A stretch of 64,000 nt of DNA from an uncultured Croceicoccus sp. Its GTDB lineage: Bacteria > Pseudomonadota > Alphaproteobacteria > Sphingomonadales > Sphingomonadaceae. Both the position numbers and the translations under genes were made by a program. Where the stretch lies: the NCBI RefSeq assembly GCF_947496385.1, contig NZ_CANMCP010000006.1, forward strand, positions 62,001-126,000. The letters run 5' to 3'. The notes under the pieces are model-generated. The model ran no database searches and was not told the DNA's origin. It saw only the letters and a program-made list of their open reading frames with translations. Shown here piece after piece: positions 42,283 through 60,036 of this stretch (position 1 is the first letter of the stretch; each line of letters opens with the position of its first letter).

Positions 42283-45228
42283 TCAGAATTCCGCCTTGAA
42301 CGAGACGAAGAAGTCCCGGCCCAGAACGTCATAGACGGTCGGGTAGGTATTCGCCTGCTGCTGCGAATCGCCGGTCAGACGGGGCTGCTGGTCGAGAAGG
42401 TTGTTCACGCCGAAGGTGATGACCTTGTTTTCCAGAACCTCGAACGAGGTGGCGAGATCGAGGTAGAAGGTTTCTTTCAGACGCGGAATCGCGAGCGATG
42501 CCGCATCCACGCCGTCACGCAGCTGATCGTCCTCGGCTTCGCCGACATAGCGGCCACGCAGGCTGATCGTTGCGGGGCCATCCGAAAGCGTCACGCGGCT
42601 CGAGAACTTGTACTCGGGCTGAAGCGTGCCGCAGGTCGAGCCGTAGTAGCCCGCGCACTGCTCGGTCTGATCGGGGAGATCCGACACCGGGGTGAAGGTG
42701 TTCTCGTCCGTCCAGGTGCCGAGGAAGTAGAACGACAGGTCGCTCTCACCCGCGCCGAACATGCTGAAGCCGACAGGCGTCGCGTAGCTGACTTCGAGGT
42801 CGACGCCCGAGGTGGTCAGTTCCGAGATGTTGGCATTCAGGATCTCGACGAAGTTGATGCTGCCATCGTCGAAACGGTTGATGGCCTGGCAATACTCGCT
42901 CGAGACGTCCTGCACCGTGTTGTAGCACAGCGACAGGGCGTTGTTCAGACCGCCACCCAGGGTCGAGATGAGGTTCTCGACCTTGATGTCGAAATAGTCG
43001 ACGGTGATGGCGAGACGCGGGATGAAGGAGGGCTGCAGCACGACACCGGCGGTGAACGTATCGGCCGTTTCTTCTTCGAGGTTCGGGTTGCCGCCGAACT
43101 GGCCTTCGATCTGCGAGTTCAGCTGAACCGCATCGGTAAAGACCGCATCGGCAGGCACGCCCGTCGCGATGCAGAGATCGCGCACGGCGTCGCTCTGGTT
43201 CGTGCTACGGCTCGAGCACGGGTCGGTAGCGGGCGGGAAGCCCTGCGACGCACCGCCGAACAATTCGTCGACGTTGGGCGCACGGACGGCACGCTGATAC
43301 TGACCACGCAGGGTGATGTCGCGGATCGGAGCAAGCGTCACGCCGCCGGCATAGGTCCACACGCCGCCCACTGCACCGAGCGAGTAGTCGGAATAACGCA
43401 CAGCGCCGGTCAGCTCGAGACGGTCGATGAAGCCACCGTTGATCAGCGGCACGTAAAGTTCGCCAAAGAGCTCCTTCACGTCATAGCTGCCCTCGGTCGG
43501 CAGACCGGCGTTGAAGCCCGTTACGTCGCCCGATGCAAGGAAGGTGTCGGGAATGTATTCCGACGAAACCTTGCGATATTCGGCACCGAAGGCCACGCCC
43601 AGTGCGCCGCCCTGAAGCTCGAAAAGCTCGCCATTGATGGTCGCGTTGGCAACCTGCAGCGACGAGATTTCGGTGTTCTGCGCACCGATGCGGATGAAGT
43701 CTGCCGCTTCGTCCGAAATCGTGTTCAGGCCGAAGATGTTGAGCGGCACACAGCCGTTCGCCGGATTGGTGCAGACGAGATTGCCATCATCGTCGAACTC
43801 GGTCCGCAGAGCCTGGGTAAAGCGGCTGATCGACGCATTGCCCGACTGGATCTGCGAATTGCGGGTCCGCGAATACATGTAATAGGCGTCATAGCCCCAT
43901 GCCGGCGAGAATTCGCCGCGCAGACCGCCCAGAACGCGGAACGCATTACGGTCGTCGTTCGAGTTACGCGAGCCGAGTTCCAGAAGGCGGCGACGCACCT
44001 GCGAGCTGACGAAACCGTCACCATCGGTGTCGAGCGCGGCAAGCTGGTTCTGAACCGACTGGTCGAAGAACGGGCTGTCGACGTCGAGGTCGACGGTCAG
44101 GAACGCCGGCGTCGGGGCCAGTTCCTGCGGCACGTTCGAATTGACATAGGACAGTTCGGTGTACGCGGTCATGCCATCGGCGATGTCATAATGACCGTAG
44201 CCGCCGAGCATGTAACGTTCCTGCGGAAGCTGCAGGTAGTTGAACGGTGCGTAGTTGAACGGCGAATAATCGACGAGCGTGCCGCCGCTGTTCGCGAACT
44301 GTGCGCCCAGCGCGTCGACATAGGTCGTGGGAACGCCCGACGAACCGCCGGCAACCGGACCGATGACGCCGCCCTGGCCGACGCAGGTCTGACCTGCGGA
44401 CGAGCTGAACGGAACGGTCTGGTCGCTGATGCCGGTGTCGCCGTCGATGGACCCGGGAACGATACAGCCGTCGACGGCTGCAAAGCGCGAGAACGCACGC
44501 TGATCCTGGAAGATTTCCTTGCGGCGGTTGTACGAACCCCAAACGGTGACGTTACCGCGACCGTCGGCAAGGTCGGAACCGAGCGCGATGTCGATGTTGT
44601 AGCGGTGACCGTCGCCACGCTCGGTGATCGAGCTCTGCCCGCCGAGCAGGATGCCGTCGAGATCGTCACGCAGCTTGAAGTTGACGACGCCAGCCAGCGC
44701 GTCCGAACCGTAAACGGCCGAGGCGCCGCCGGTCACGACATCGACGTTCTGAATCAGGAACTGCGGGATGGTGTTCAAGTCGACGATTTGCGAGGTATCG
44801 TAGAACATCCAGCGGCGACCGTTGACCAGCACCATCGTGCGGGTTTCGCCCAGACCACGAAGGTTCAGCGTGGCGGCACCATTGCCCGGGTTGTTCGAGT
44901 TGCCGTTGAGGCCGGGAACGACCTGCGGCAGCGCGTTGATGACGGATTCGACGTTGACCGAGCCGGACAGTTCGAACTCTTCCTCGTTGACGACGGCGAC
45001 GGGGGCCGCAGTCTCGAGATTGCGTCGCGCGATGCGCGAACCAGTCACGACGATCGGCTGACCGACCTGCTCGTCATAGGAATTGGACGGCGAGCCGACG
45101 CCGGGCTCGTCCATGTCGGCCTGCGCGAACGCCGGGCTTGCCACGGCCAGCAGCGAGGTCGCGCCGACCAGAGCGGCAGCGCGCAGGCTGCTGCTCGCCT
45201 TCAGCATGGAATTGGTTTTGAATTTCAC
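42283..45228 (-). CDS. TonB-dependent outer-membrane receptor
   Basis: The 981-residue receptor starts at GTG 45228 (AGGGG ten bases upstream) or at ATG 45207. The signal peptide 'VGATSLLAVASPAFA' is followed by a TonB-box-like 'QPIVVTGSRIARRN', a plug domain (about 60-190, 'LNLRGLGETRTMVLVNGRRW', 'VDVVTGGASAVYGSDALAGV') and a 22-strand barrel ending in a C-terminal Phe ('DFFVSFKAEF'). Acidic calcium-like loops such as 'DTDGDGFVSS' occur in the barrel. The type (oligopeptide/carbohydrate-like, not classical siderophore) is common in sphingomonads; the substrate is unknown. It converges on the 2OG-oxygenase pair. Confidence 0.97.
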   Translation of the reverse strand: MKFKTNSMLKASSSLRAAALVGATSLLAVASPAFAQADMDEPGVGSPSNSYDEQVGQPIVVTGSRIARRNLETAAPVAVVNEEEFELSGSVNVESVINALPQVVPGLNGNSNNPGNGAATLNLRGLGETRTMVLVNGRRWMFYDTSQIVDLNTIPQFLIQNVDVVTGGASAVYGSDALAGVVNFKLRDDLDGILLGGQSSITERGDGHRYNIDIALGSDLADGRGNVTVWGSYNRRKEIFQDQRAFSRFAAVDGCIVPGSIDGDTGISDQTVPFSSSAGQTCVGQGGVIGPVAGGSSGVPTTYVDALGAQFANSGGTLVDYSPFNYAPFNYLQLPQERYMLGGYGHYDIADGMTAYTELSYVNSNVPQELAPTPAFLTVDLDVDSPFFDQSVQNQLAALDTDGDGFVSSQVRRRLLELGSRNSNDDRNAFRVLGGLRGEFSPAWGYDAYYMYSRTRNSQIQSGNASISRFTQALRTEFDDDGNLVCTNPANGCVPLNIFGLNTISDEAADFIRIGAQNTEISSLQVANATINGELFELQGGALGVAFGAEYRKVSSEYIPDTFLASGDVTGFNAGLPTEGSYDVKELFGELYVPLINGGFIDRLELTGAVRYSDYSLGAVGGVWTYAGGVTLAPIRDITLRGQYQRAVRAPNVDELFGGASQGFPPATDPCSSRSTNQSDAVRDLCIATGVPADAVFTDAVQLNSQIEGQFGGNPNLEEETADTFTAGVVLQPSFIPRLAITVDYFDIKVENLISTLGGGLNNALSLCYNTVQDVSSEYCQAINRFDDGSINFVEILNANISELTTSGVDLEVSYATPVGFSMFGAGESDLSFYFLGTWTDENTFTPVSDLPDQTEQCAGYYGSTCGTLQPEYKFSSRVTLSDGPATISLRGRYVGEAEDDQLRDGVDAASLAIPRLKETFYLDLATSFEVLENKVITFGVNNLLDQQPRLTGDSQQQANTYPTVYDVLGRDFFVSFKAEF

Positions 45229-52994: not shown

Positions 52995-53753
52995 CTACCG
53001 GCAGAACGAGCCGAAGCCGCGCGGCGCCTGGTCCAGGTGAAAATGATCGGCGTGCAACGCATTGTAATCGGGCGATAGGACCGTCCCGAACGCGTCGCAC
53101 GCCCCGTCCCGCACCGCGGCGAGGAACGCGCCCTCGGCATCGGGCGTGCCCGCGCCGGTCCACCAGTCACCCTGCACCGATATGCGGCGTCCATCGTTCA
53201 GCACGAATGCGGCGATGTCGATGGCATTGCCCGTGGCGTGCTCGCTCCACCGGCCGGTGTCGGCACCATTGACCCGGCGGCAGCTATAGGTGCCGAGTTG
53301 CTCGATCCGGGCGACGCGGCTGTTCAGCAATTCCTCCGCCATGGGCTGTACGCTTTTATCCAGCCACCATGCCATTGCCGCCTGCACCGCGCAGGTCGTT
53401 TCCGGACGCGCCGGCGCAAAGGCAAGGCCGCGCTCCGGCGCCGGGACAACGCGCAGCCGGTCGTCGCGCCGACATGCCCCCTCACCCACCGGGTTAAGGT
53501 CGTCGAACGCGATCTCCGCCCGTTCCAGCGCGCCGCGGCACAGCGCCGGATCGGTGCGCAGCGCGGCCAGCTTGCGGGATGTCGCCATCCCTGCCGGCCC
53601 GTTCAAGGCCAGCGGCGCGCGCGGGTCGTGCTCCGGATGGGCCGCGATCCATCCATTCGCGGCCAGCGCCAGTGCGGCAAGGATCATCACGCCGATGAAT
53701 ACACGGTCCATGCGGAACAGCGAACGGGCGGGCAGGCGCGAAAAGACATCCAT
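52995..53753 (-). CDS. Extensin-like C-terminal (M15-fold) protein, last gene of the SOS operon
   Basis: The 252-residue protein has one N-terminal membrane anchor ('VFIGVMILAALALAANGWIA'). It then has an extensin-like C domain with paired cysteines ('TYSCRRVNGADTGRWSEH'). The motifs 'SEHATGNAIDIAAF' (SxHxxGxAxD) and 'NALHADHFHLDQ' (HxH) match the zinc-site layout of M15/VanY-type peptidases, so an envelope peptidoglycan or protein hydrolase role is plausible. The ATG follows the dnaE2 TGA by two bases (TGAGGATG), so it is translated with dnaE2. It converges on phoB with a 1-base gap. Confidence 0.87.
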   Translation of the reverse strand: MDVFSRLPARSLFRMDRVFIGVMILAALALAANGWIAAHPEHDPRAPLALNGPAGMATSRKLAALRTDPALCRGALERAEIAFDDLNPVGEGACRRDDRLRVVPAPERGLAFAPARPETTCAVQAAMAWWLDKSVQPMAEELLNSRVARIEQLGTYSCRRVNGADTGRWSEHATGNAIDIAAFVLNDGRRISVQGDWWTGAGTPDAEGAFLAAVRDGACDAFGTVLSPDYNALHADHFHLDQAPRGFGSFCR

Positions 53754-53755
53754 CC

Positions 53756-56700
53756 TCAATGAAAGTCGCGAGAGCGCGGCAGTATCCTGACATTGCGCGG
53801 ATGGCTGCCGCGAAAGCCGCATTCGCGATTGTCGCCGGGCGGCGGCTGCCACGGGTCGAGCGGGGGTTTCGGGTGGGCAGGATCGTCGCGCCCTTCCCGC
53901 AATTCGTCGCGCGGGCCGAATTTCGCCGGCAACGGGTGGCTCACATGGTCGGCACGGGCCAGATCGGTACGGATCAGGTCGTCGGACAGCGCCATCAATG
54001 CCGGGGTCGCATCCACCATGTGCTGCACGATGACATGGACCACGTCGTCGTCATATTCGACACGCCCGCGCACTTCCATCAAGCGCGCGCCCATCACCAC
54101 CTTGCGATATTTCTCCTTGAAATCGGGCCACACGACGAGATTTGCGACACCGGTCTCATCCTCCAGCGTGATGAAGCACACGCCCTTCGCGCTGCCCGGC
54201 CTCTGCCGGATCAGCACCACCCCCGCAATATGGATCATCGAGCGGAACTTGCGCGCGCGCAGGTCGCAGGCCCGCACGAAACCCCGCTCGGCCAGATCGG
54301 CCCGCAAAAACGCCATCGGATGCGCTTTCAATGAAAGCCGCGTCGTCTGGTAATCGGCGACGACCTCCTCCGACATAGGCATCGACGGCAGGCGGGTGGG
54401 CACGGCCTCCGCCCCTTCGTCGCGCGCATCGGCATGGGCGAACAAGGGCAGCGCCGGCGCGGACACCAGGCTGCGCGCATCCCAGAGCGCCTGCCGCCGC
54501 GCGAGGTTCAGCGACCCGAACGCATCGGCACTGGCAAGCCGCTCGACATGCGCGACGGGAATGCCGGATCGTTCGCGAATGGCCGCGACATCGGCGAAAT
54601 CACCGCCTGCATCGCGCGCATCGATCATCATCGCGGCGACATGTTCGGGGAACCCGTCCACCTGACGAAAGCCGAGGCGCAACGCCATGCGCCCCCGCCC
54701 CGCCTGCTCCCCCGCCTGCTCCAGCGTGCAGTCCCATTGCGACCGGTTCACGTCCACGGGCCGGATCTCCACCCCATGTTCGGCGGCATCGCGCACGATC
54801 TGTGCCGGCGCGTAAAATCCCATCGGCTGCGAATTGAGCAGCGCGCAGGCAAACGCGGCGGGATAATGGCATTTCAGCCAGCTCGACACATAGACCAGAT
54901 GCGCAAAGCTCGCCGCATGGCTTTCGGGAAAGCCATATTCGCCGAAACCGCGGATCTGGTTGAAGCACCGCTGCGCGAATTCGCGGTCGTATCCGCGTGC
55001 CACCATGCGTTCGACCATCATGTCCTGCAATTCGTCGACCATGCCGCGCGAACGGAACGTCGCCATCGCCTTGCGCAGCCGGTTCGCCTCGACGCTGGAA
55101 AATTTCGCGGCGTCGAGCGCGATCTTCATCGCCTGCTCCTGAAAGATCGGCACGCCTAGCGTCCGGGCGAGGATCGAGGACAATTCGTCGGGCGGGCCAT
55201 GCGCGGGGCCGGGCGCCGGGATCTGTACCGCCTCCTCGCCGCGCCGGCGTTTCAGATAGGGGTGCACCATGTCCCCCTGAATCGGGCCGGGACGCACGAT
55301 CGCGACCTGAATCACAAGGTCGTAGAATTCGCGCGGGCGCAGGCGCGGCAGCATGTTCATCTGCGCCCGGCTTTCCACCTGGAACACGCCGAGGCTGTCG
55401 CCCTTGCGCAGCATGGCATAGGTTTCGGCATCCTCGCGCGGAACTGTGGCCAGCGTCATCCGGCGGCCATGATGATCGCCGACCAGATCAAGGCATTTGC
55501 GAATGCAGGTCAGCATGCCGAGCGCCAGGACGTCGACTTTCAGGATGCCCAGCGCCTCGATATCGTCCTTGTCCCATTCGATGAAGCTGCGGTCCGGCAT
55601 CGCCCCATTGCCGATCGGCACGGTTTCGGTCAGCGCCCCTTCGGTCAGGATGAAACCGCCAACGTGCTGCGACAAATGGCGCGGCATTCCAATCATTTGC
55701 CGCGTAATCTTCAAAATCCGCCGTAAATGTGGATCGGTAATGTCGAGCCCGGTTTCCGCCGCGTGTGCCTCGCCGATTTCCCGGCCCATGCCGCCCCATA
55801 CCGTCCCGGCGAGCGCGGATGTCACATCTTCCGACAGGCCCATCGCCTTGCCCACCTCGCGGATGGCCATGCGCGGGCGGTAATGGATCACCGTCGCGCA
55901 CAGCCCGGCCCGCTGCCGCCCGTATGTCCTGTAAATATGCTGGATCACCTCCTCGCGTCGTTCGTGTTCGAAATCGACGTCGATATCGGGCGGCTCCTTG
56001 CGCTCCTCCGATATGAAGCGGTCGAACAAAAGCGCATGGCGCGCCGGATCGACCGAGGTGATTTCGAGGCAATAGCACACCGCCGAATTGGCCGCGCTGC
56101 CCCGCCCCTGACACAGGATCGGCGGTTCCTGCCCGCGTGCGAAATCGACGATATCCTTGATGGTCAGGAAATATCGCGCGAGGTCGAGCTTCCCGATCAG
56201 CGCCAGTTCGCGTTCCAGTGTTGCACGAATACTGTCCGGCAAGCCATTGGGATAGCGGCGTTTTGCCCCCTCCCACGTCTGCGCCTCAAGATAGCCCTGC
56301 GGCGTCTGCCCATCGGGATAGATCTCTTCCGGATATTCGTAGCGCAATTCGTCGAGGCTGAAATCGCAGGCATCGGCAACCTCCCGCGCCGCCGCGATCG
56401 CATGGGGCCAGTCGCGGAACAGCCGGACCATGTCCTGTGGCCCTTTGAGATAACGTTCCGCATTGGCGTGCAGCAGATGGCCCGCCTTCGCCACTGTGGT
56501 CTTGTGCCGGATCGCGGTCATCACATCCTGAAGCGGGCGGCATCCGGGCGCATGATAATGCACGTCATTGGTGGCGAGGATCGCCATGCCATGGGCGTGC
56601 GCCATCCGGTCGAGATGCGCGATCCGCGCCAAATCGTCACCGATATAGACGAGGCTGGCCGCGACATGGCGCAGGCTCGGCAACATGCGGGACAGATGGG

Positions 56701-57283
56701 GCAGCAAGGTCTCGAAACATCCCGTCATGCGGCCATCGGCCACGGGCTGTTCGGCACCGGGAAAGGCGACGACATTGCCCGGCGCGCAAATCGTGAACCG
56801 CGTGGCAAGATCGGCCGGCGGCACCGCGATCAGCTGCACCCCCTCGGCATGGTTCGCGAGCATGGCGAGATCGATCTCGCACACGCCCTTGTCCTGCCAC
56901 TCACCGCTCAGCGTCTGCATCCGCCCGGTGGAAATCAGGCGGCACAACCGGCCATAGGCGGCGCGGTCGGTGGGATAGGCGAGAAAGGCCAGCCCCTCCA
57001 CCGTTTCGATGCGGCAACCGATGACGGGGCGCAGCTTCGCCGTCCGTGCCTCGGTATGGATGCGCACCACGCCCGCCATCGAATTGACGTCGGCAATGCC
57101 CATCGCATCATAGCCCAGCGCCCGCGCGGTCTCGACCAGATCGACCGCATCCGAAGCCCCGCGCAGGAACGAGAAACAGCTGATCAGCCCCAGCTCCACG
57201 AAAGGCGCGCGGGGTGGCGGGTCAAAGCCGTCGGGATCGCCTTCGATCCGGCGGCGGGCGGGGGTCAGCGGTGCATCGGGCAT
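53756..57283 (-). CDS. dnaE2: Error-prone DNA polymerase DnaE2
   Basis: The 1175-residue C-family polymerase begins with a PHP domain ('FVELGLISCFSFLRGASDAV'). The polymerase core shows 'PPILCQGRGSAANSAVCYCL' and the catalytic 'PPDIDVDFEHERREEVI'. Later come 'VQVAIVRPGPIQGDMVHPYL' and 'FPESHAASFAHLVYVSSWLK', and near the C-terminus an OB fold ('FRSMIHIAGVVLIRQRPGSA'). The PYLKRRRGEE and FGEYGFPESHA blocks place it in the DnaE2/ImuC clade rather than DnaE1. It does translesion, mutagenic synthesis. No imuA or imuB is nearby; instead it follows UdgX by 12 bases. Confidence 0.96.
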   Translation of the reverse strand: MPDAPLTPARRRIEGDPDGFDPPPRAPFVELGLISCFSFLRGASDAVDLVETARALGYDAMGIADVNSMAGVVRIHTEARTAKLRPVIGCRIETVEGLAFLAYPTDRAAYGRLCRLISTGRMQTLSGEWQDKGVCEIDLAMLANHAEGVQLIAVPPADLATRFTICAPGNVVAFPGAEQPVADGRMTGCFETLLPHLSRMLPSLRHVAASLVYIGDDLARIAHLDRMAHAHGMAILATNDVHYHAPGCRPLQDVMTAIRHKTTVAKAGHLLHANAERYLKGPQDMVRLFRDWPHAIAAAREVADACDFSLDELRYEYPEEIYPDGQTPQGYLEAQTWEGAKRRYPNGLPDSIRATLERELALIGKLDLARYFLTIKDIVDFARGQEPPILCQGRGSAANSAVCYCLEITSVDPARHALLFDRFISEERKEPPDIDVDFEHERREEVIQHIYRTYGRQRAGLCATVIHYRPRMAIREVGKAMGLSEDVTSALAGTVWGGMGREIGEAHAAETGLDITDPHLRRILKITRQMIGMPRHLSQHVGGFILTEGALTETVPIGNGAMPDRSFIEWDKDDIEALGILKVDVLALGMLTCIRKCLDLVGDHHGRRMTLATVPREDAETYAMLRKGDSLGVFQVESRAQMNMLPRLRPREFYDLVIQVAIVRPGPIQGDMVHPYLKRRRGEEAVQIPAPGPAHGPPDELSSILARTLGVPIFQEQAMKIALDAAKFSSVEANRLRKAMATFRSRGMVDELQDMMVERMVARGYDREFAQRCFNQIRGFGEYGFPESHAASFAHLVYVSSWLKCHYPAAFACALLNSQPMGFYAPAQIVRDAAEHGVEIRPVDVNRSQWDCTLEQAGEQAGRGRMALRLGFRQVDGFPEHVAAMMIDARDAGGDFADVAAIRERSGIPVAHVERLASADAFGSLNLARRQALWDARSLVSAPALPLFAHADARDEGAEAVPTRLPSMPMSEEVVADYQTTRLSLKAHPMAFLRADLAERGFVRACDLRARKFRSMIHIAGVVLIRQRPGSAKGVCFITLEDETGVANLVVWPDFKEKYRKVVMGARLMEVRGRVEYDDDVVHVIVQHMVDATPALMALSDDLIRTDLARADHVSHPLPAKFGPRDELREGRDDPAHPKPPLDPWQPPPGDNRECGFRGSHPRNVRILPRSRDFH

Positions 57284-57295
57284 CGCGCATCCCCG

Positions 57296-58762
57296 TCATG
57301 CATCGGTCAGTTCGGACAGCCGCTTTGCCACCGCGGCGAGATCGGCATCGAAAAGCCGTTGCTGCTCTTCCCGCGCCGCGCCGTCGAGGCGGAGGAGGTA
57401 GGACGGGTGCGCCGTCACCCACAATTCGCTTCCGTCATCCAGCGGATGGGCGACGCCGCGCGCCTTCGTGATGCTGACCGTCTTGCCCAGCATGCCGCGC
57501 GCCGCGCTCGCACCCAGTGCCAGCACGAGTTTCGGGCGCACGATGGCGCGTTCACTCTCCACCCACCAGCGGCAGATGTCGATCTCCTTCGCCTTGGGCG
57601 ACTGGTGAATGCGGCGCTTTCCGCGCTGCGTGGTCTTGGCCGTGAACTTGAAATGCTTGACCGTGTTGGTGACATAGGCGGTGGCCCGGTCGATGCCCGC
57701 CTTTTCAAGATGCACGTCGAGCAATTGCCCCGCCGGCCCGACGAAGGGGCGGCCCTGCCGATCCTCCTGATCGCCGGGTTGTTCGCCCACGATCATGAGG
57801 GGCGCACCGCGCGGCCCTTCGCCCATGACGGCGGTATTGTCGAGTTCGCCGATCGGGCAGCGGGCGCAGGCATGGATCGCCTTTTCGATCGCGACCAGCG
57901 TTTCGGGCCGTTCGCCCATGTCGATTTCGCCGGCCTTCACCATCGTCGCCTCCCGTGCCTGCGCGCCCGCGACCAGCTCGGGAATCATCTGCGCCTCGGG
58001 CATGTTTTTCCAGTATTTGCGCGGCATTTCCTTCATCATCGCGCCGATCTTCAGGCGCGCGGGGTTGAAGATGGAGGCATAGTAGCCGCGCCACAATTCC
58101 TCCGCATCGTCGCCGGTCGGCGCGTCGGCGCGGGTGGCGGACGGCCCCTCGCGCAGCACCTCTCCGTCCCAGTGCAACGCCCCCCGCGGGGTCAGGATGG
58201 ACCAGCGCATATTGGCGAAGCGCCGCACGAAAAAGCCCGCATTGTGCCGCAATATGTGGTGGAACGGTTCGAACCACGCGATGTAATGCTCGGTCCCGTC
58301 CTCGTCCTTCGTTTCGCGAAAGCGCAGGAAGGCCCGCATCTTGTGAATGTCGCGCCGCACCGCGCGGGCCATGTCGGCCAGCTTGCGAATATCGCCATCG
58401 GCGGCATCCTCGATCAGCCGGGGCCGCGTCTGCAACCGCCACAGCGTGCGGTAAAGAATGAAAAACCGTTCCGGATCAGAGTGAAGGATAACAGTCTTCG
58501 CAATATCCATGAAGCGTCGCGACACGCGCGGCTGCGGCGCATCATCAGGCGGGGTGGGCAGGCGGCGGTCGCCATGGGTAAACAGATCGCCGGCGCTTCC
58601 ACCCGGTTCGGTCCATGCCACGCGGTCGGGCGGCGCATCCGCCATCAACAGGCGGCGGGCCTGATCGCGCCACCCCTCGAAATCGTCGCTCTCGGCCAGA
58701 GGCACCACGTAATAGGTGCCCAGCTTCACATGAGCCAGCCTGTCCTGCGCCGGCGCACTCAT
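57296..58762 (-). CDS. udgX: Two-domain UdgX-type uracil-DNA glycosylase (N-terminal DUF4130 / TIGR03915-like domain)
   Basis: The 488-residue protein has an N-terminal ~260-residue domain of the radical-SAM-linked DUF4130 kind ('YRTLWRLQTRPRLIEDAADG', 'KMRAFLRFRE', 'FEPFHHILRHNAGFFVRRFA'). It is fused to a family-4-like uracil-DNA glycosylase. Motif A is 'GEQPGDQEDRQGRPFVGPAG' (326 onward), and an FeS-type CxxC lies in 'HACARCPIG'. The UdgX hallmark loop 'GKRRIHQSPKAKE' has H386, the residue known in mycobacterial UdgX to bond covalently to the abasic site. Motif B is 'VTAHPSYLLRLDG'. Its ATG overlaps the radical SAM stop (ATGA). Confidence 0.94.
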   Translation of the reverse strand: MSAPAQDRLAHVKLGTYYVVPLAESDDFEGWRDQARRLLMADAPPDRVAWTEPGGSAGDLFTHGDRRLPTPPDDAPQPRVSRRFMDIAKTVILHSDPERFFILYRTLWRLQTRPRLIEDAADGDIRKLADMARAVRRDIHKMRAFLRFRETKDEDGTEHYIAWFEPFHHILRHNAGFFVRRFANMRWSILTPRGALHWDGEVLREGPSATRADAPTGDDAEELWRGYYASIFNPARLKIGAMMKEMPRKYWKNMPEAQMIPELVAGAQAREATMVKAGEIDMGERPETLVAIEKAIHACARCPIGELDNTAVMGEGPRGAPLMIVGEQPGDQEDRQGRPFVGPAGQLLDVHLEKAGIDRATAYVTNTVKHFKFTAKTTQRGKRRIHQSPKAKEIDICRWWVESERAIVRPKLVLALGASAARGMLGKTVSITKARGVAHPLDDGSELWVTAHPSYLLRLDGAAREEQQRLFDADLAAVAKRLSELTDA

Positions 58763-60006
58763 GCGGCGAACAGCTCCAGCTGCCGGTCCTGCGGCGGGGC
58801 GATCAGCGTTTTCAGGTCGGCCCGGTCGGTCAGCAATGTCGGGCGCCAGTCTGCGGCAACGAGGAACGGGCGCACCTTCGTAAGCGACACGGTCATCTTC
58901 GCCACATCGTCCAGCCGTAGCCGCCGATGCCGCCGCGCCGACAGGATCTGCCCCACCGCCCGCGTGCCCAGCCCCGGCACGCGCAGTAACATTTCACGCG
59001 AAGCCCGGTTCACATCCACCGGAAATTCCTCCCGAAATTTGAGAGCCCAGGCCAGCTTGGGGTCGATGTCGAGCGGCAGCATCCCGTCCGCCCCCGCCGC
59101 CTGGCCAACCTCCTGCGGCGAATAGCCGTAGAACCGCATCAGCCAGTCCGATTGATAGAGCCGGTGTTCGCGGATCAGGGGCGGCCGCTTCAACGGCAGG
59201 ACCGCGCTTGCATCGGGAATCGGGCTGAACGCGCTGTAATAGATGCGGCGCAGCGCATGCCGGCCGTAAAGGCTGCTGGCGCGGGTCACGATATCGGTGT
59301 CGCTCGCCCCGTCGGCGCCGACGATCATCTGCGTCGACTGGCCGGCAGGCGCAAATCGCGGCGCGTGGCGAAATCGCTTGCGCGCATCCACCGCCTCCGT
59401 GATGTCGCTCCCCATGCGGCCCATAGCGCCGTCGATCTGACCTGCGTTCTTGTCGGGCGCCAGCCGGTTCAACCCGGCATCGGTCGGCAATTCGACATTG
59501 ATCGACACGCGATCGGCATAGAGCCCGGCGCGGTGAATGATCTCCGGGTCCGCCTCGGGAATGGTTTTGAGGTGAATATAGCCGCGAAAATCATGCTCCT
59601 CGCGCAGGATGCGAGCCGCCTCCACCAATTGCTCCATCGTGTGATCGGACGATTTCACGATGCCGGAGGACAGGAACAATCCCTCGATATAATTGCGCTT
59701 GTAGAATGCGATGGTGAGGTCGGCGACCTCCTGCGGCGTGAAGCGCGCGCGCTCCACGTTCGAACTCTTGCGATTGATGCAGTAATGGCAATCGAAGATG
59801 CAATGATTGGTCATCAGCACCTTGAGCAGCGAAATGCACCGCCCGTCGGGCGCATAGGCGTGACAAATGCCCATCCCCTCGGTCGAACCGATGCCCTTGC
59901 CGCCGCGGCTGTCGCGTTTCGATGTGCCCGACGACGCGCAGGACGCATCGTATTTCGCCGCATCGGCGAGGATCTTCAATCGGTCGAGAATCGGTTTCTG
60001 AGCCAT
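58759..60006 (-). CDS. Radical SAM DNA modification/repair-associated protein (TIGR03916-like)
   Basis: The ATG at 60006 with AGAGG six bases upstream gives 415 residues. The radical SAM cluster CxxxCxxC is C69, C73 and C76 in 'TNHCIFDCHYCINRKSSNVE'. The early 'ICHAYAPDGRCISLLK' adds cysteines. The C-terminus has a helix-hairpin-helix DNA-binding segment, 'VDVNRASREMLLRVPGLGTR' continuing 'AVGQILSARR'. Proteins of this type co-occur with the DUF4130 partner and are proposed to act on DNA; the reaction is unknown. It is the first gene of a radicalSAM-udgX-dnaE2-extensin operon, with a LexA box 16 bases upstream. Confidence 0.93.
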   Translation of the reverse strand: MAQKPILDRLKILADAAKYDASCASSGTSKRDSRGGKGIGSTEGMGICHAYAPDGRCISLLKVLMTNHCIFDCHYCINRKSSNVERARFTPQEVADLTIAFYKRNYIEGLFLSSGIVKSSDHTMEQLVEAARILREEHDFRGYIHLKTIPEADPEIIHRAGLYADRVSINVELPTDAGLNRLAPDKNAGQIDGAMGRMGSDITEAVDARKRFRHAPRFAPAGQSTQMIVGADGASDTDIVTRASSLYGRHALRRIYYSAFSPIPDASAVLPLKRPPLIREHRLYQSDWLMRFYGYSPQEVGQAAGADGMLPLDIDPKLAWALKFREEFPVDVNRASREMLLRVPGLGTRAVGQILSARRHRRLRLDDVAKMTVSLTKVRPFLVAADWRPTLLTDRADLKTLIAPPQDRQLELFAA

Positions 60007-60021
60007 GGGCACCTCTTTTCC

Positions 60022-60036
60022 GTTCTATAAATGTTC
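60022..60036. promoter_or_regulatory. LexA (SOS) box of the radicalSAM-udgX-dnaE2 operon
   Basis: GTTCTATAAATGTTC is an exact GTTC-N7-GTTC (GAAC-N7-GAAC on the coding strand), the alphaproteobacterial LexA operator. It contains a TATAGA -10-like hexamer on the minus strand and ends 16 bases before the radical SAM start, so bound LexA would block initiation. Confidence 0.88.

Follow-up and report, generated by a model that had tools for sequence, protein, structure and literature searches.

What does the radical S-adenosylmethionine (SAM) protein at the head of an apparent SOS operon in an uncultured Croceicoccus species act on, and which of its neighbours belong to that activity? The operon lies in a window of 64,000 nucleotides (contig NZ_CANMCP010000006.1, positions 62,001 to 126,000), the whole stretch of DNA that was analysed. 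Open reading frame (ORF) calls place four closely packed minus-strand genes there in the order rSAM (the radical SAM protein, with a helix-hairpin-helix (HhH) region), a DUF4130-UdgX fusion, dnaE2 and an extensin-like gene. A preliminary description had proposed that these form one system, in which the radical SAM/DUF4130 pair processes or installs a base change, UdgX removes or shields uracil and abasic sites, and DnaE2 fills across them; this interpretation is partly supported. Packing and family assignment were confirmed with NCBIfam and Pfam: rSAM scores 562.7 bits on TIGR03916 over residues 6-402 (curated cut-off 343.5), the fusion protein 220.6 bits on TIGR03915 (cut-off 112.25), 132.8 on PF13566 (cut-off 27) and 302.2 on TIGR03914, DnaE2 1369 bits on NF004225 (cut-off 939), and the extensin-like protein 187.8 bits on PF06904. 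The cross-linking motifs of UdgX are likewise intact. Gene order, family membership and the conservation of motifs and SOS box were observed directly. Our judgement is evenly balanced on whether they reflect an SOS-induced, clamp-tethered rSAM that processes a DNA lesion at the replication fork, with UdgX shielding uracil or abasic sites and DnaE2 synthesising past them.

Neighbourhood counts were used to define the core of the system. DUF4130 comes next after rSAM in 18/20 loci of the window's family, 20/20 loci of its class, 5/5 plasmid or phage-record loci and 75/80 loci of the genome_contigs set; the last set consists of the 80 top-ranking candidates among 591 confirmed for a single query, most of them Bacteroidota (eight are Proteobacteria by title), and does not represent all bacteria. 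A uracil-DNA glycosylase (UDG) adjoins rSAM in 18/20, 14/20, 1/5 and 0/80 of the same sets, adjacency being a DUF4130 within 1500 bases or a UDG within 3500 bases of the rSAM end by tblastn, which can miss diverged genes. Further loci gave DUF4130 in 40/41, the miss being a short viral contig (L236), and UDG in 19/20 alphaproteobacterial and 8/20 other proteobacterial cases; overall, UdgX is adjacent in 52/61 alphaproteobacterial loci. One genome (G018) has an rSAM with no adjoining DUF4130 and carries a DUF4130 elsewhere. The conserved core is rSAM plus DUF4130, and UdgX is an add-on. Because the pair occurs without a detected adjacent UdgX, UdgX cannot be required for the core reaction. The same counts bear on the idea that rSAM frees UdgX for reuse by releasing or destroying its covalent adduct with DNA. 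UdgX is a frequent neighbour in Proteobacteria, as would suit such a role, but the pair stands without a detected adjacent UdgX in 80/80 genome_contigs, 6/20 class and 12/20 other proteobacterial loci, and 13 of the 30 UdgX genomes in a sample of the class have no rSAM above cut-off; we consider adduct release very improbable, and it was dropped.

The C-terminus of rSAM reads QLELF-AA. Excerpts of PMC9690074 and PMC3716654 give the bacterial clamp-binding consensus as QL(S/D)LF, usually C-terminal, with QLGLF in Pol II and QLNLF in Pol V. Of 165 rSAM relatives (the virus contig L236 excluded), 114 have the strict form Q[LM]x[LM]F within their last 14 residues, 137 a middle form Q[LM]x[LMI][FLWG] and 158 a wide pentapeptide form, compared with means of 0.5, 1.4 and 9.5 in shuffled tails. 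By group, the strict and middle forms are found in 46 and 53 of 61 alphaproteobacterial, 3 and 14 of 20 other proteobacterial, 63 and 67 of 80 genome_contigs and 2 and 3 of 4 other sequences. Background was taken from 3818 other six-frame ORFs of at least 150 residues in the same loci, which are not all genes: none had the strict form and four had the middle form. Of the 221 window ORFs of at least 100 residues, rSAM alone carries the motif. Residue Q409 is conserved in at least 98% of 164 rSAMs (L154 and L236 left out), and the linker ahead of the motif varies in length and letters in alignment A1. The tail matches the pattern of a beta-clamp-binding peptide and is described here as beta-clamp-binding-like. 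No paper combining 'radical SAM' with 'beta clamp' was found in the openly licensed PubMed Central (PMC) literature, and the clamp-like tail of rSAM appears to be a new observation. Such a tail could also serve an enzyme whose substrate is a protein at the clamp (the clamp itself, a polymerase or DUF4130) rather than DNA, and rSAM has a weak fold likeness to radical-SAM enzymes that act on proteins, such as PFL-AE and LIAS; the HhH region implies DNA contact, however, and we rate a protein substrate as distinctly unlikely.

The preliminary description also placed a LexA box over the start of the operon. The sequence GTTCTATAAATGTTC is present at 60022-60036, 15 bases upstream of the rSAM ATG. 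The strict pattern GTTC-N7-GTTC has two matches in the window, and at least two were obtained in 57 of 100 shuffles, so that a single box is at chance level; taken alone, the window box was dropped as evidence. The other strict match lies at 44331-44345. The box is significant because its position is conserved across loci, not because of the single window match: GTTC-N7-GTTC occurs within 150 bases upstream of rSAM in 38/40 and 20/20 alphaproteobacterial loci, where 0.005-0.006 are expected per locus. Only L074, whose site is by eye one base off, and L122 lack it. Upstream of rSAM in other Proteobacteria, CTGT-N8-ACAG was found in 14/20 loci (0.002 expected), and in the genome_contigs set CTAA-N5-TTAG was found in 18/80 (0.004 expected) and GGA-N5-TCC in 12/80, none of them among those 18 (0.047 expected). 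The latter two motifs are given for Bacteroidetes in an excerpt of PMC8565304. Control patterns had no matches, a result that is uninformative at expectations of 0.002 and 0.006 per locus. Regulation of rSAM seems, from these patterns, to have tracked shifts in LexA specificity. In the window's own genome a lexA match (C1:341572-342240, minus strand) has a box of the same pattern 39 bases upstream (C1:342279-342293); no such box was seen near recA (C1:696982) among the C1 box matches.

Box and start codon are strikingly close in some relatives. In 20 of 40 alphaproteobacterial loci (L065, L066, L070, L072, L075, L079, L113 and others) only 1-3 bases separate the end of the LexA box from the start codon used for rSAM, which suggests a leaderless transcript, because no space is left for a ribosome-binding site. 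The window and genome G009 have a short leader between box and rSAM with an AAGAGG-like site.

The chemistry of rSAM was approached through its cysteines and fold. The CX3CX2C triad (C69, C73, C76) is invariant in 43 aligned rows, and together with C23, C48 and C57 it makes six cysteines present in 165/165 rSAMs. The invariance of C23, C48 and C57 hints at a second metal site, perhaps an auxiliary Fe-S cluster. A Gemmatirosa relative below the family cut-off (L155, 3700-4978) shows none of these three cysteines in the part of its sequence that was read and may perhaps belong to a sister family with different chemistry. A profile search matched the HhH region to the ComEA-related protein 2duy (E 0.0015). 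LipA and MiaB have N-terminal auxiliary clusters, which the arrangement of three cysteines ahead of the triad loosely resembles, and the fold matches include LIAS and MiaB. These likenesses would fit an rSAM that installs a DNA base change, by hypermodification or sulfur insertion, with the rest of the operon guarding or reading the mark. SOS control and a clamp tail suit repair more readily than a permanent mark. The annotations of the three loci inspected name no methyltransferase or restriction gene, and the four window proteins matched none of the PADLOC families at E<=0.01, a result on which a defence role was also dropped; base installation is in our view unlikely.

The radical-SAM fold and the SOS boxes also recall spore photoproduct lyase (SplB). 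A figure legend by Aravind and colleagues describes the partner as 'SplB-like' and suggests that DUF4130 'might modify thymines'. An rSAM of this kind would reverse a pyrimidine photoproduct, and UdgX would handle uracil from deaminated cytosine in the dimer. At E<=0.001, however, NCBIfam gave TIGR03916 alone for rSAM and no SplB model. Members of the family occur in Bacteroides, Pusillibacter (human source) and Fusobacterium, which are gut or mouth anaerobes, and this lifestyle makes it unlikely that UV lesions are what the family generally acts on. We therefore assign a photolyase-like reaction a low probability, comparable to that of base installation.

DUF4130 was examined as the constant partner. 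In 161 sequences R147, F148, P166, R181 and R236 are conserved in 100% and W224, W251, P247 and E256 in 99%, and there is no conserved cysteine. Because of the conserved arginines and tryptophans, DUF4130 seems more likely to bind nucleic acid or protein than to act as a catalyst. A structural model (mean predicted local distance difference test (pLDDT) 80.6) gave no match at E<=0.001 in a fold search of the PDB; six S100A6 chains from a profile search of PDB sequences (E 0.23-0.48) were judged to be chance hits. All 56 members of set A3 match TIGR03915, and Pfam found DUF4130 alone in six partner proteins of the Bacteroidota type, which span several phyla. In print, the Bacteroidetes SOS operon is described as UDG based; the fetched loci (L156-L235) show DUF4130 and no detected UDG domain. 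The published 'UDG' may be a DUF4130 protein that was assigned to COG1573 via its fused relatives.

The fused UdgX domain carries GEQPGDQED, KRRIH and HPSYLLR. According to an excerpt of PMC10359453, UdgX is defined by GEQPG (motif A), the KRRIH R-loop with the cross-linking histidine and HPS (motif B), and that histidine was found in 34/34 fused UdgX sequences read (29 by pattern, 5 by eye). UdgX of Mycobacterium smegmatis has been shown in print to excise uracil and to stay covalently on the abasic site; the window UdgX presumably has the same covalent chemistry on uracil and abasic sites.

A link between UdgX and DnaE2, as proposed in the preliminary description, gained support from four families in which UdgX stands beside imuB or dnaE2 in differing arrangements. 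The window's family (f1) has imuB-rSAM-UdgX-dnaE2. A second family (f150; L281 and L290, two genera) has the pair divergent from imuB-dnaE2 across a LexA box, with a weak imuA hit. In a third (f79), L138 (7166-13133) reads imuA-imuB-udgX-dnaE2 with a stand-alone UdgX and no radical-SAM gene, and udgX and dnaE2 adjoin in L143; in the fourth (f19; L139, L141) a stand-alone udgX precedes imuA-imuB-dnaE2. Mutasome-adjoining loci make up 4 of 17 stand-alone UdgX loci, in which imuA gave weak hits only (41-53 bits). A quick tree, computed with long-branch warnings and leaving out L068 (near-identical to L064) and near-duplicates, places the f150 mutasome link apart from that of f1. The class sample of 289 genomes holds rSAM in 22, DnaE2 in 141 and UdgX in 30 above cut-off. 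Seven of 32 UdgX places above cut-off, in three families, lie within 10 kb of DnaE2 by eye (G232:C1, at 11.4 kb, was left out); at an assumed 0.5% chance each this would have a probability of about 2e-10 if the places were independent, which they are not. DnaE2 was present in 20/22 rSAM genomes and 121/267 others (Fisher p 2.5e-5, ignoring genome size and kinship). No paper pairing 'UdgX' with 'DnaE2' or with 'radical SAM' was found in the openly licensed PMC literature, and the recurring meeting of UdgX and mutasome appears to be a new point.

These meetings also bear on whether the four genes are simply neighbours by history that share an SOS promoter and no joint mechanism. Several genera of the window's family have the rSAM-UdgX pair alone, with DnaE2 above cut-off elsewhere in 10/11 genomes and a DnaE2 fragment at a contig end in the eleventh, and in L075 and L079 the extensin-like gene directly follows UdgX, all of which would be expected of loosely assorted neighbours. 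Set against this, UdgX meets imuB or dnaE2 in four families with different arrangements and in the seven close places of the class sample, and we think a purely historical association distinctly improbable.

The family operon was reconstructed from 20 family loci. Its fullest order is imuB-rSAM-DUF4130/UdgX-dnaE2-extensin-like, ending at a convergent phoB-like gene, and where an imuA-like gene was found it precedes imuB (L073 and L080, and in further loci L114, L115 and L298). rSAM, UdgX and dnaE2 occur together in nine of the 20 loci, with imuB in the same stretch in all nine and the extensin-like gene after dnaE2 in eight. The window genome and G009 have a block of about 6 kb between imuB and rSAM (from 60199 to beyond 64000 in the window; 10200-16290 in L064), which holds glycosyltransferase, sucrose-phosphate-phosphatase and sulfotransferase domains; the spacing is 0.4-1.6 kb in seven other family loci and 2.5 kb in L115. 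The window genome's imuB has IMS and DUF6504 domains (IMS at C6:129370-129741), and the ORF before it, with its own LexA box (C6:130669), has a weak ImuA_translesion match (E 1.3e-4, 21.9 bits; cut-off 150). The imuA-imuB-dnaE2 cassette is therefore split here, with imuB about 6 kb from rSAM under a separate LexA box. dnaE2 is a lineage addition to the rSAM locus, and the window operon can be read, by inference from gene order, as a lineage-specific fusion of two SOS cassettes. Among the loci searched for it, the extensin-like gene stands beside the cassette only in the window's family and is probably a lineage-specific companion, not part of the mechanism.

The survey of the four genes thus divides: rSAM and DUF4130 are widely paired, but dnaE2 is in the operon in just nine of 20 family loci, and rSAM and DUF4130 often stand without adjoining UdgX or DnaE2. 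A fixed four-gene machine was dropped because the four are not conserved together. The claim of undescribed biology holds for the rSAM reaction and not for the gene pair, its SOS link or the family names, which are in print in PMC3765255 and PMC8565304. Added here to the preliminary description are the position of rSAM-UdgX within a split imuA/imuB-dnaE2 cassette, the clamp-like tail and the extra cysteines.

In the reading to which we gave even chances, damage would release LexA from the box, and rSAM would be made and would dock on the beta sliding clamp through its QLELF tail, its HhH region contacting DNA. With its constant partner DUF4130 it would act by radical chemistry on a nucleotide damaged at the fork and most probably reverse the lesion or trim it. 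UdgX, where present, would remove uracil and remain covalently on the abasic site, and an ImuB-DnaE2 mutasome recruited to the same clamp would synthesise past the remainder. ImuB is described in an excerpt of PMC10421592 as the clamp-binding hub of the mycobacterial mutasome, and the window genome's ImuB has QAEMAF, a possible clamp site. A more specific version is tentative, and we lean against it: an rSAM with a second metal cluster would ride the clamp and direct 5'-deoxyadenosyl-radical chemistry at damage at the fork, DUF4130 would be the lesion reader, and UdgX and the DnaE2 mutasome would be follow-up modules in some lineages.

Several observations weigh against a clamp-tethered repair enzyme. 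All evidence on rSAM comes from sequence and models; its AlphaFold model is weak (mean pLDDT 70, N-terminus below 50), and the best fold matches are generic radical-SAM enzymes, namely HydE, lipoyl synthase (LIAS), biotin synthase and similar barrels. The putative clamp motif spans only five residues. The strict form is found in just 3/20 other proteobacterial rSAMs, where QMALW-like tails dominate, and the wide form also arises by chance in shuffled tails (mean 9.5/165). Seven of 165 rSAMs have not even the wide form in the last 14 residues: L154, a phage-record ORF with a different tail, and six from Bacteroidota (L225, L226, L230, L233, L234, L235) with hexapeptide-like tails such as QLTLSF, which are counted as variants only under a pattern drawn up once they had been viewed. 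Neither Bacteroidetes motif lies upstream of rSAM in 50/80 genome_contigs loci, and GGA-N5-TCC is only about threefold above expectation. DnaE2 is in the rSAM locus in part of one family only and near rSAM in one other (f150), two of the 22 rSAM genomes (G111, G225) have no DnaE2 above cut-off, the Fisher test takes no account of kinship or genome size, and UdgX goes undetected beside the pair in the many loci counted above.

Were the more specific version true, it would amount to replication-coupled radical repair, which the literature searched did not describe. The family is common (72/299 genomes above cut-off in a phylum sample), and the SOS-type boxes upstream of rSAM vary from group to group. 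A control search with TIGR03916 also scored in Caulobacter vibrioides. Direct experimental routes are opened by the clamp-like tail and by the repeated association of UdgX with the mutasome. The coordinates of the features are collected in Table 1.

Table 1. Features of the operon, with positions in the window
Feature	Positions	Strand	Basis or remark
rSAM: radical SAM / HhH protein, TIGR03916	58759-60006	-	ATG start; alternative GTG at 60012
DUF4130-UdgX fusion gene	57296-58762	-	4-base overlap with rSAM
dnaE2, error-prone DNA polymerase	53756-57283	-	12-base gap from DUF4130-UdgX; NF004225
Extensin-like gene (PF06904)	52995-53753	-	ATG at 53753, 2-base gap from dnaE2
LexA (SOS) box, coding strand GAACATTTATAGAAC	60022-60036	-	Pattern match; position conserved in 58/60 alphaproteobacterial loci
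Stretch with invariant C23, C48, C57 (and H49), N-terminal of triad	59836-59940	-	Conservation
Radical-SAM triad C69-x3-C73-x2-C76	59779-59802	-	Alignment
ComEA-like helix-hairpin-helix region (approximate positions)	58900-59043	-	Profile match to 2duy
C-terminal beta-clamp-binding-like motif QLELF, residues 409-413 of 415	58768-58782	-	Conservation
DUF4130 / TIGR03915 domain of fusion protein	57992-58690	-	NCBIfam, Pfam
UdgX domain (TIGR03914) with GEQPG, KRRIH, HPSYLLR motifs	57329-57988	-	NCBIfam, motifs
R-loop KRRIH carrying the cross-linking histidine	57605-57619	-	Motif comparison

Relatives of rSAM were also seen in records filed as phage or viral (L154, L236, L237 and the phage records H41-H50). 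Two of these, H42 and H43, are 240 kb 'Acinetobacter phage' records with rSAM at 92% coverage and may be bacterial contigs. The viral contigs yielded two rSAM loci and no relative of the UdgX part.

Set beside known systems, the parts and the pair have been named before, and the clamp tag and the recurring tie to a mutagenic polymerase system appear to be new. The NCBIfam models rSAM_link_UDG, SAM_7_link_chp and UDG_fam_dom (TIGR03916, TIGR03915, TIGR03914) name the same linkage, and all domains score well above their cut-offs; the model names carry no tested function, whereas the pair here sits in a mutasome operon and its rSAM has a clamp-like tail. The COG1573-COG4277 operon, in which we take COG4277 to be rSAM, is probably the same gene pair under LexA control. 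An excerpt of PMC8565304 reports that operon as SOS-regulated in Bacteroidetes, cites the same for Verrucomicrobia and Alphaproteobacteria, and speaks of UDG-based base excision repair, whereas in the 80 loci here the partner is DUF4130 and no UDG was detected. SplB is likewise a radical-SAM enzyme tied to SOS and DNA repair; the window rSAM differs in matching no SplB family model and in having extra cysteines, an HhH region and a clamp-like tail. To our knowledge SplB has none of these three features. The M. smegmatis UdgX shares the GEQPG, KRRIH and HPS motifs; the window UdgX is distinguished by its fusion to DUF4130 and is itself linked to an SOS-boxed radical-SAM gene. Finally, the window dnaE2 belongs to the imuA-imuB-dnaE2 mutasome, whose imuB and weakly matching imuA lie about 6 kb off with their own LexA box, and in relatives rSAM and DUF4130-UdgX are located between imuB and dnaE2.

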